DNA from: Johnsonella sp.
GTDB lineage: Bacteria; Bacillota; Clostridia; Lachnospirales; Lachnospiraceae
Assembly (NCBI GenBank): GCA_030529445.1
Contig: JAUMWW010000009.1
Coordinates: forward strand, 1 to 64,000
Direction: 5' to 3'
DNA: 64,000 bases
The notes beneath the pieces are model-generated. The model was not told the origin of the DNA. It ran no database searches and was given only the letters and a program-made list of their open reading frames with translations. Within the stretch, counting starts at the first letter, position 1. Every line of letters starts with the position of its first letter. The translations under genes and the position numbers were made by a program. Shown in pieces: positions 46,506 to 51,024 of the stretch.

Positions 46506-47807
46506 TTAAATATCGAGCATAATCTTCAATATTTCCTTATCCGTTTCTCTCATCCCTTCTCTTCCCAGTCTTCCTACGCTGGCAATCATGTTTTCCACGC
46601 CTTTTTTAACGATTCCGTCTCCACCTACAAACTGCTGTCCTCTGCAGTACATCTCATAGCCCAGGATTCCGTTCTCAACCGCAAGACCTATCTTTGCGGC
46701 GCAGGAAGCCTTCGCTCCGTCGCAGATTATCCCCGAGGCTATCGCCAGACCGTTTACCAGAGTATGGGCGATCTCCTTGAAGCCTCCGCCTTTCAGATAC
46801 GCTATGCCGCAGCCCGCCGCAACACCCGCGTTAACGACTCCGCAGTATGCGCTGAGTCTTCCGATCGGCGTCTTCTGATGTATTGCAAGCAGATTGGAAA
46901 GCGCAAGCGCCCTGTACATCTTATCCTTTTCAACTCCCATCTCTCTTGCATACACGACAACCGGAACGGAAACCGTTATCCCCTGATTTCCGCTTCCCGA
47001 ATTGATAATTACGGGAAGCTCGCAGCCGTTCATTCTCGCATCGCTCCCCGCCGCAGCCATGGCTCTCGCCTTCAGCTTCCTTGCGGCATCTCCCTCCTTT
47101 TCCAAAATCTCTTTATTGGCGGAAAGAAGCACGCTGCCTATGTTTGCCCCATAATCATTTTTCAGTCCCTCTTCGGCAATCGCCATATTATACTCGATCT
47201 GCCGTTCCAAAAGCTCCTCGATATCTTCTATTTCTACGGAATCGACAAAGTCCAGAATTTTCTCCACGCTCAAGAAGGATCTGTCCGTAAAATTATTCGG
47301 CTTATCCTCTCCCGTCTCCTTGGAGAGCAAAACCTCATCCCCCTTCATCACCAAAACGATATTCGTATGATTGTCCACAATTCTTACTTTTGCGTGATTT
47401 CCGTCCTTATACACCGTGATGACGATATCAAAAATAAAATCCGAGTCGGCAAGATCAACCTTGATCTTTGCCTTATCCAGATAGGCTTTGATTTCTTCTA
47501 TCTTCTCCGGAGAGACCTTTGAGATCACTTCCAGCTTTTTATTCGCGTCTCCCGCTATGATTCCGGCGGCAACGGCGGCATAAATTCCTCTCATATGCCC
47601 TGTATTCGGCACGACCACGCTCTTTACGTTTTTGATGATATTGCCGCTTGCCTCGAGCAAAACCTTATCCGGCACGGCTCCCAATACTTCTCTCGCCTTT
47701 GCCGCCGCATATGCGATGGCGATGGGCTCAGTGCAGCCCATTGCGGGAAGCAGCTCTTCTTTTAAAATACTGATACATTTTTGATACACCTCATCCGTAC
47801 GAACCAT
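46506..47807 (-). CDS. L-cysteine desulfidase family protein (CyuA/CdsB-like)
   Basis: A 433-residue member of the L-cysteine desulfidase family (UPF0597, related to the iron-sulfur L-serine dehydratase alpha chain). Markers are EELLPAMGCTEPIAIAYAAAKA at the start, with the conserved Cys, and a C-terminal block containing GSGNQGITVSVPVV, YCGVVNAGVAAGCGIAYL and GIICDGAKASCAAKIG; these Cys residues bind the [4Fe-4S] cluster. It breaks cysteine into sulfide, ammonia and pyruvate. A perfect promoter and AAGGGGAG site lie before it; it appears monocistronic. Confidence 0.9.
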   Translation of the reverse strand: MVRTDEVYQKCISILKEELLPAMGCTEPIAIAYAAAKAREVLGAVPDKVLLEASGNIIKNVKSVVVPNTGHMRGIYAAVAAGIIAGDANKKLEVISKVSPEKIEEIKAYLDKAKIKVDLADSDFIFDIVITVYKDGNHAKVRIVDNHTNIVLVMKGDEVLLSKETGEDKPNNFTDRSFLSVEKILDFVDSVEIEDIEELLERQIEYNMAIAEEGLKNDYGANIGSVLLSANKEILEKEGDAARKLKARAMAAAGSDARMNGCELPVIINSGSGNQGITVSVPVVVYAREMGVEKDKMYRALALSNLLAIHQKTPIGRLSAYCGVVNAGVAAGCGIAYLKGGGFKEIAHTLVNGLAIASGIICDGAKASCAAKIGLAVENGILGYEMYCRGQQFVGGDGIVKKGVENMIASVGRLGREGMRETDKEILKIMLDI

Positions 47808-47974: not shown

Positions 47975-48247
47975 TTATTTCATCAGTTTTTTTAAAAGAT
48001 CCGTGATTTCTTCGATCTTCTTTTCCCTTTCCCAGGGCTCTCCTTTTGCGGCGGCATCCATAATACAGTTTTGCATATGAGCCGCTATTACGGCTTGATT
48101 TGCTTTATTAAGCAGTGCCGAGGCGGCAAGAAGCTGGTTGGAAATATCAATACAGTATCTGTCCTCCTCCACCATCTTGATAATTCCCTCGATCTGCCCT
48201 CTTGCGGTCTTTAATCGGCGAAGGACCTCTCCTCTGTCCGCCTTCAT
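47975..48247 (-). CDS. csoR: CsoR-family metal-sensing repressor
   Basis: A 90-residue four-helix repressor of the CsoR/RcnR family. The copper-site triad C-H-C is visible as Cys32 (RYCIDIS), His57 and Cys61 (AAHMQNCIM). The N-terminal RRLKTARGQIEGIIKMVEEDRYC block is the family signature. It binds promoter DNA without a classic helix-turn-helix and leaves on Cu(I) binding. Its start shares one base with the copA stop (TAATG), so translation is coupled. A matching operator is seen upstream of copA. Confidence 0.93.
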   Translation of the reverse strand: MKADRGEVLRRLKTARGQIEGIIKMVEEDRYCIDISNQLLAASALLNKANQAVIAAHMQNCIMDAAAKGEPWEREKKIEEITDLLKKLMK

Positions 48248-48450
48248 TATTCCACCTCATATCCCGCCGCAGCGATCGCAGACCTTATCTTTTCGAGGCT
48301 CCCCTTTTCTTCGTACTCGACATGCACCAAGCCCTTCTCATAATCCGCATTTACGGATTTAACACCCTCTATTGCATTGACCGCCTTCTCTACGCTTGCC
48401 TTGCAATGCGGACACATCATTCCCCCTACCTTAAGCTCTGTTTTCAACAT
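48247..48450 (-). CDS. copZ: Probable internally initiated copper chaperone CopZ within copA
   Basis: ATG 48450 lies in the copA frame and is preceded by AGGAGG with an eight-base spacing, the kind of site used by true starts here. Translation from it gives a 67-residue protein with ferredoxin-like HMA fold: [23 protein letters not shown] and the [12 protein letters not shown] segment, with the C-x-x-C copper site MCPHC. Length and composition equal those of free CopZ chaperones. It is unusual that the same codons also form the C-terminus of CopA. So two products are predicted: a fused CopA with C-terminal HMA domain and a free CopZ. This is inference from the ribosome site. Confidence 0.65.
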
Positions 48451-50877
48451 ATGATTTTCCTCCTGAATAATATTTTTCGTATTTTCTTCTTCATTTGAAA
48501 CCTTCATCATTCCTCCCAAATCAGGAATCACTCCTTCATAATCTCCCCCTATTTTCTTCTTTTTCTTAAAGGGAGAACGAAAGCCCTTCAGCCTGAGCGC
48601 ATTGCCCACGACACATACGCTGCTCATGCTCATCGCCGCCGCCGCAAACATCGGGCTGAGCTTCCAATGCAGACTTGAATAGAACAAACCTGCCGCCAAG
48701 GGAATCCCTATCGTATTATAGAAAAATGCCCAGAATAAATTCTGCTTGATCGTCCGGATCACCGCCTTGCTCAGATCTATCGCCGCGACCACATCTTTCA
48801 GGCTGCTATGCATCAATACAATATCCGCAGATTCGATTGCGATATCGGTACCGGCTCCTATCGCAATCCCGACATCCGCTCTTGCCAGAGCCGGCGCGTC
48901 GTTGATTCCGTCTCCCACCATCGCAACCTTTCTTCCTTTTTCCATCAGCTCCCTGATTTTGCTCTCCTTATCGGCAGGGAGCACTTCCGCGATAAATTCT
49001 TCGATCTTTGCCTCTTTTGCGATTGCCTCCGCCGTTTTCTTATGATCTCCCGTCAGCAGAATAACCCGAAGCACTCTGTTTTTCATCGCCTCAACCGCAC
49101 CGATGCTGTCCTCTTTGATCGGATCGGCAACGGCGATCAGACCGAGAAAGTGAAGCTTCTTTTCCTCTTCCTCCGCAAAATACATCGAGGTCATTCCCTC
49201 TGCCGAAAGCCTCTCTCCCTCTTCCTTTAATGCCGCAAAATCGATCTCGGGAAGCAGAAAATCCTTTGCCAGTTCCTCCATAAAAAGCGCATTTCCCGCA
49301 TATATTCTTGACTTTCCGATCAATGCGCCGATTCCTCTTCCCGGCTTGGCAATGAAGTCCTCTGCGGGAAGCATTTCCAGATCCAGTGCTTTTGCCGCTC
49401 TTACAATCGGCTCGGCAAGCGGGTGCTCCGAAGCATTTTCCAAGGAAGCCGCCTTCTGCAAAAGATCATCTTCGCTCATCCCTTCCGGAACAAAAATTTT
49501 CTTAAGCAGAGGCTTCCCCTCGGTGACCGTCCCGGTTTTATCCAGCACCACCGTATCGATGGTATGGCTGATTTCCAAAGCTTCCGCGGATTTAATCAGG
49601 ATTCCCTGCTCCGCTCCCTTCCCCGTTCCCACCATGATGGCAACCGGAGTCGCCAGTCCCAGAGCACAGGGACAGGAGATGACGAGCACCGAAATCCCGA
49701 AACTGAGCGCCGCTCCCGGACCTTCTCCCAGGAGCATCCATATCACAAAGGTCAGCAGAGCGATCAGGATGACGAAGGGCACGAAAATTCCCGAGACCTT
49801 ATCCGCAATCTTGGAGATCGGCGCCTTCGAGGAAGCGGCTTCCTCCACCAGAGCGATGATTTTTGAAATCGTCGTATCTTCTCCCACATGGGTCGCTCTC
49901 ATCCTGATGCTTCCGTTTTTATTGACCGTCGCTCCGGTCAGCCTGTCTCCGACGAGCTTCTCCACCGGAATACTCTCTCCCGTGATCGCGGATTCATCCA
50001 CCGAAGTGCTTCCTTCCAGGAGGATTCCGTCTACCGGAATTCTCTCTCCCGGTCTGATAACAAGAATCTCGCCTATTCCGACCTCCTCCGTCGCTATTTC
50101 GACTTCCTTTCCCTCCCGGATTACAAATGCGGTCTTCGGCGAAAGATCCATCAGCTTGGTAATCGCCTCTCTCGTCCTCTCCTTGGAACGCGCCTCAAAA
50201 TACTTGCCCTGGGAGATCAGTGTCAAGATCATGGCTGCCGATTCGAAATAAAGATTCATCATATAATGATGCACCAAAGTCTTATTTCCGTGACCCAGTC
50301 CGTATCCTATCACATATATCGCGGCAACCCCGTAAATAAATGCGGCAAGAGAGCCGAGCGCAATCAGAGAATCCATATTCGGCGCACGCATAAAAAGGCT
50401 TTTGAAGCCTACGATATAGTATTTCCTGTTGATATACATGATCGGGAGCACCAGAAGCATTTGGGTGAATGCATAGCTGAGCGCATTTTCCTCCCCCAGC
50501 AAAAAGGAAGGGCTCGGCAGCCCCAGCATGCTTCCCATACTCACATACATAAGGATAAGAAGCAGCACCCAGGAAAGCTGCAGCCTCTTCTTCATCCCGG
50601 CAAGCTCTCCTTTCTCCTCCTTCTTCCCGCTCTCTTTATTCCTCGTCTTTTGTTCCTGCTTCTTATGATGCAGGGCGGCGCTATAACCGATGTTTTCCAC
50701 CGCTCGGATAATTTCTTCGCCGCTTATCTCCCCCTCCTCGTATTCCACTTTCATCGAATTGGTCAGAAGATTAACCGTACAGCTGCTCATTCCCTTCAAT
50801 CCAGCAATTTCTTTTTCCACTCTGCTGCTGCAGGCGGCACAGCTCATTCCGCCGATATCATATCTTTCTTTCTTCAT
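48247..50877 (-). CDS. copA: Copper-exporting P1B-type ATPase CopA with fused C-terminal HMA domain
   Basis: An 876-residue Cu(I) export ATPase. An N-terminal HMA domain has [13 protein letters not shown] (residues 8-20). The membrane part has eight helices with the transport motif [12 protein letters not shown], the phosphorylation site DKTGTVTEG, the nucleotide site SEHPLAEP, and the hinge [11 protein letters not shown]. After the last helices come a Lys-rich stretch and a 50-residue Asn/Glu-rich linker, then a second HMA domain (from about residue 810), an unusual position. It exports copper from the cytoplasm. Its promoter has a CsoR-type operator, and csoR is the next gene. Confidence 0.95.
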
Positions 50878-50966: not shown

Positions 50967-51024
50967 ATATCACCCCACCCTATGGGGGTGTCTATATTTT
51001 ATTTTTTTCTCCTCCTTCTGTCAA
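50967..51024 (-). promoter_or_regulatory. copA promoter with CsoR operator
   Basis: TTGACA (51019-51024), exactly 17 bases and TAAAAT (50996-51001) on the minus strand. Immediately downstream is the dyad CACCCC/GGGGTG with a CCC-TATGGG core (about 50967-50994), matching CsoR-type GC-rich operators. The -35 overlaps the stop codon of the upstream gene. Confidence 0.75.

Follow-up and report, generated by a model that had tools for sequence, protein, structure and literature searches.

A putative copper chaperone CopZ encoded by an in-frame internal start at the 3' end of the copper pump gene copA in Clostridia

Initiation profiling in E. coli has revealed internal in-frame starts that yield the C-terminal domain of a protein as a second product, and the CopA pump of Archaeoglobus fulgidus carries metal-binding domains at both its N- and C-terminus. 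To our knowledge, the described examples of internal starts are single genes in few genomes. Two other arrangements supply a copper pump together with a small HMA chaperone. In E. coli, a programmed -1 frameshift within copA gives rise to the chaperone CopA(Z) (Meydan et al. 2017 and Drees et al. 2017, cited after PMC9548414 and PMC7558416), and the same frameshift is also described in PMC5009743. In E. hirae and other bacteria, copA and copZ are separate genes, often in one operon (PMC7558416, section 4.1).

The copA gene described here lies in the window, a stretch of 64,000 nucleotides from Johnsonella sp., and appears to represent a further arrangement (Table 1). As in E. coli, pump and small HMA-type copper chaperone would both come from a single gene. 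However, CopA(Z) is the N-terminal HMA domain, released by a -1 frameshift and an early stop, whereas the Clostridial unit is the C-terminal HMA domain, which stays in frame 0 and would be translated from an internal start, with no need for a frameshift; it is thus not of the CopA(Z) type, and the view of the preliminary description that this solution differs from the E. coli one holds. The two products and the HMA family are the same as in the separate copA and copZ genes, but those are two cistrons with a stop between them, and here there is no stop and the copZ start lies inside copA. A Shine-Dalgarno sequence (SD) and a start codon inside a longer frame are shared with the internal starts of E. 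coli; in contrast to those known to us, the Clostridial start lies at the beginning of a metal chaperone and has been retained in 11 GTDB-family codes. With an HMA domain at either end, the pump is similar in layout to the A. fulgidus CopA. No report of a CopZ start nested in the 3'-terminal part of copA was found in the literature searched, mostly papers outside subscription. Internal starts are known, and so is the production of pump and chaperone from one gene; their combination and its spread here are, as far as found, new.

Table 1. Features of the copA-csoR region of the window
Feature	Position	Strand	Remarks
csoR-like repressor	47975..48247	minus	PF02583, E 2.7e-26; its ATG overlaps the copA/copZ TAA by one base (TAATG)
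copA, Cu(+)-exporting P-type ATPase, 876 aa	48247..50877	minus	N-terminal HMA, pump core and C-terminal HMA; PF00122, PF00702, two HMA stretches
nested copZ (predicted), 67-aa HMA protein	48247..48450	minus	in-frame internal ATG at 48450-48448; motif GMMCPHC; PF00403; phmmer matches to CopZ structures
internal Shine-Dalgarno AGGAGG	48459..48464	minus	8 nt 5' of the nested ATG; dG -10.3 kcal/mol; kept in relatives
linker, residues 773-809	48451..48561	minus	AT-rich, predicted disordered; unconserved except SD codons
palindrome ACACCCCCATAGGGTGGGGT	50972..50991	minus	directly after the copA promoter; sole match in the window
sigma-70-like promoter TTGACA-17-TAAAAT	50996..51024	minus	ahead of copA; consensus match 11/12

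The pump core of the window CopA is recognized by its profile matches (PF00122, E 8.4e-61; PF00702, E 2.8e-29), and an alignment of 36 CopA rows is invariant at CPC (C402 P403 C404), DKTGT (446-450), Y720 N721, M749 S752 S753, and G10 M11 C13 C16. The last 67 codons of the gene had been described as a complete HMA protein preceded by an AGGAGG and a well-spaced in-frame ATG, and both parts of this are borne out. The C-terminal HMA domain is complete (CopA residues 810-876, with the PF00403 match spanning residues 815-874), and the 67 residues by themselves match PF00403 (E 2.2e-16) and, by phmmer, the solved CopZ structures 6ff2, 2qif, and 1k0v; a CopZ-type chaperone consists of one HMA domain of some 70 aa that carries MxCxxC. 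The spacer between the AGGAGG and the ATG is AAAATCAT, the ATG stands in the copA frame in the context Q-E-E-N-H-M, and the frame stays open to the TAA ending at 48247. GC content is 0.33 at 48440-48559 versus about 0.5 in the copA gene. In an AlphaFold model made with the 36-row alignment, pLDDT is below 50 over the whole linker, and the folded C-terminal domain starts at residue 810, which is the nested Met. Predicted mRNA structure at the nested start is low (-1.1 versus -7.0 kcal/mol), in part a matter of base composition (GC 0.30). An Rfam search gave no match.

Taken alone, the window gene is weak evidence for a nested start, because copA is purine-rich and has further SD-like ATGs. An SD that pairs equally well arises in 38% of draws when the codons upstream are recoded synonymously and in 3% (p 0.03) when linker codons are shuffled, and two of the 34 other in-frame ATGs of the gene have a better SD score. 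Such single-gene statistics are insufficient, and the case therefore rests on the comparison of relatives.

A first sample comprised 80 loci, in which the share of fused genes is biased upward because one of the search peptides (GMMCPHCK) lay in the C-terminal HMA domain. CopA matches were then counted in 367 of 397 genomes of the window's family and in 138 of 159 genomes of the phylum. In all, 219 CopA loci were examined, of which the redundancy filter left 209; the script recognized an in-frame C-terminal HMA in 169 loci, and removal of near-copies gave 160 fused ones. A C-terminal HMA on CopA had been called rare, but in Clostridia it is common: most of the matches listed from the family search reach about residue 875. 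The 160 non-redundant fused relatives also rule out that the fusion is a sequencing error that removed a stop codon, the case that had been named as refuting the proposal. The signal was defined as the best in-frame ATG 4-14 codons before GMxCxxC with an SD at dG <= -7, an arbitrary cut-off.

An in-frame ATG in this range is present in 156 of the 160 fused CopAs, 154 of which combine it with a strong SD (dG <= -7), and in 120 of the 156 it lies 8 codons from the metal motif. Blautia hansenii (L068) and Anaerotignum neopropionicum (L025) are among the cultured species that carry the signal. The same pattern was observed when the ATG was chosen blind to the SD, as the most upstream one, in an earlier set (110 loci, 86 non-redundant fused): an ATG was found in 84 of the 86 rows, the mean SD dG was -10.4 over these 84 versus -3.2 at 2075 other in-frame ATGs, and -7 was reached by 78 of the 84 versus 9.4% of the others. 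The core SD motif precedes 152 of 156 nested ATGs and 291 of the 3919 other in-frame ATGs of the genes. The strength of the SD in relatives exceeds the expectation from synonymous recoding (Wilcoxon p 1e-12). By columns, there is an SD peak at -14..-8 and an invariant ATG in an otherwise near-random linker, with an amino acid entropy of 3.2-3.8 bits at -12..-6 and, in the window's clade, 8% pairwise amino acid identity at -30..-7. The SD is encoded by codons of the KEE/QEE, KGE/KGG, and ERS types and therefore occurs in all three codon phases. Separate copZ genes are preceded by SDs of about equal strength (15 of 19 at <= -7, mean -8.9). Thus the SD and the in-frame start are conserved beyond the protein sequence, as befits an internal in-frame start.

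Since the signal rule takes the best ATG in its range, other inner HMA domains were screened with it in the same form. No signal was found before the second N-terminal HMA of tandem CopAs (0/29; one ATG, no strong SD) or before the C-terminal HMA of membrane-anchored proteins from fused-CopA genomes (0/11; one ATG, dG -3.1); the difference between 154/160 and 0/40 corresponds to Fisher p 5e-36, with descent ignored. Six of the 160 fused rows fall outside the rule. Two are borderline: L062 has a GTG, a possible start, with a purine stretch ahead, and L128 has an SD at dG -6.9, just short of the -7 cut-off. L152, L168, and L195 are also outside, as is L073, which has two C-terminal HMA domains with an SD and ATG before the first (dG -12.0), so that a start there would give a two-domain chaperone. 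Tandem C-terminal HMA domains occur in five rows, and L073 is the one with a strong SD and ATG before the first of them; unlike L073, the Peptoniphilus rows (L052, L053, L057, L061) have the SD and ATG before the second.

Fused and non-fused genes are separated by five changes on a FastTree of the 209 CopAs, a tree rooted at its midpoint, which leaves the order of fusion and fission unfixed. The window's clade is fused throughout (65 rows, 61 with the nested start; summed branch length of 20.4 substitutions per core site), and in the large clade to which almost all fused rows belong, a single group contains 11 of the 13 split loci. The fusion of copA and copZ is, as judged from these data, old. 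Split copA-copZ neighbours with an SD of their own (20 non-redundant loci so classed) make fusion plausible as the origin; an ancestral stop between copA and copZ was probably lost, with the ribosome-binding site of copZ retained. The same neighbours lend some substance to the proposal that the old ribosome-binding site and ATG are an unused relic of the fusion and that the C-terminal HMA works tethered only. We consider this improbable: the fusion is old, and over that time the linker has diverged to the low identity given above with the SD and ATG retained, whereas losses of the nested start are few and scattered (five rows, five changes). Moreover, two of the three examined genomes that lost it have another soluble copper-type HMA protein; in the third, G181 (L168), no soluble copper-type CopZ was seen.

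Also at odds with a relic is L026 of Clostridiales bacterium DTU036, which lacks both the nested ATG and an uninterrupted frame and in which a separate copZ then follows. Here an in-frame TGA (2525-2527) takes the place of the first Cys codon in the CxxC motif of the C-terminal HMA, with two predicted hairpins after it (z -2.2); it is a candidate selenocysteine codon or the mark of a broken domain. The script classed this locus as split_adjacent despite the TGA-interrupted frame inside the C-terminal HMA.

A census of other CopZ sources points the same way. A soluble CopZ of the copper type, encoded elsewhere in the genome, was found in 1 of 20 fused genomes (2 of 20 if the incomplete G270 frame, counted as membrane-anchored by its likeness to others, is soluble) and in 9 of 12 non-fused ones (Fisher p 7e-5), a comparison that is supporting evidence only, because the two groups come mostly from different families and descent confounds it. 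For the 20 fused genomes 32 HMA frames were read (20 + 12), apart from the small low-scoring frames G015 C70 and G264 C1:1076383, the 245-aa G015 C46, and HMA matches inside long frames; in the remaining fused genomes the proteins read are of the (L/V)DC type, of the TC-PSC type, or membrane-anchored. The genome of the window (94.8% complete) has one HMA besides those of CopA, a GLDCADC protein beside another ATPase, and no second copper-type HMA.

Two observations concern these other HMA proteins. The GLDCADC protein (L118, 402-617 on contig C13) is flanked by an ArsR-like regulator and a P-type ATPase, an arrangement that resembles a cadmium/zinc pump with its metal-binding domain as a separate gene. 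Fused-CopA genomes also have small HMA proteins whose N-terminus contains a hydrophobic stretch (L249-L257, L279, L282), and several of them carry a Cys-rich CCGGG segment.

It could also be argued that the SD-like purine stretch is not a start site and acts as a programmed pause that aids membrane insertion or domain folding of CopA, given that in the window it lies about 40 codons past the last predicted membrane helix (742-765). This seems very doubtful to us. A pause would need no ATG at 8 nt, yet the ATG is kept nearly throughout and mostly at one distance from the metal motif; in addition, among the 150 rows measured, the linker between the last helix and the start is 7 to 127 codons long, which means that no fixed distance to the membrane has been maintained. 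Equally hard to credit is that free CopZ arises by proteolysis of the linker, its predicted disorder notwithstanding, or from an internal promoter, since the linker amino acids are unconserved, no minus-strand site is listed by the promoter scan between 48450 and 50190, and either process would leave the conserved SD and ATG unexplained.

Internal initiation, by contrast, very probably accounts for the data, with one gene specifying both a pump with a tethered HMA domain and free CopZ in this organism and in most of the Clostridial relatives examined. This was the proposal of the preliminary description, and the comparison of relatives supports it through the retention of SD and ATG at the domain border, the independence of codon phase, the unconserved linker, the age of the fusion, and the complementary occurrence of soluble copZ; from these we infer the initiation itself. 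Full-length translation would produce the Cu(+) pump with its C-terminal HMA on a flexible linker. Further ribosomes would bind the AGGAGG in the linker and initiate at the ATG with which the HMA domain begins; the result would be free CopZ of about 7 kDa, which, by analogy with its family, may gather cytosolic Cu(+) and pass it to the pump. Both products would come from a single mRNA, here probably under the control of CsoR; the function of CopZ and the control of the gene by copper are predictions from sequence. The palindrome ACACCCCCATAGGGTGGGGT appears to resemble CsoR operators. Under a strict pattern, only 9 of 158 fused loci have a CsoR-like motif in the 700 nt downstream, and csoR is therefore not claimed as the usual downstream neighbour. 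A perfect promoter match, TTGACA-17-TATAAT, is located at 47901-47873 on the minus strand between csoR and the next gene (46506-47807).

The two-product copA is likely to be the standard copper-detoxification gene in a large part of Clostridia. In this case soluble CopZ would come mainly, and often exclusively, from the internal start, which would have been kept since the early fusion and would fix the ratio of chaperone to pump, and it would be a second independent invention beside the frameshift of E. coli. A gene finder that reports the long CopA only would miss the chaperone in many anaerobes, including gut commensals, and the exact start positions are predicted here. Together with the E. 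coli frameshift it would show clearly how one need, a pump and a chaperone from one transcript, is served by two translational tricks in distant bacteria. The case is also a warning: where an SD and an ATG mark the border of a fused C-terminal domain, that domain may exist as a separate protein as well.
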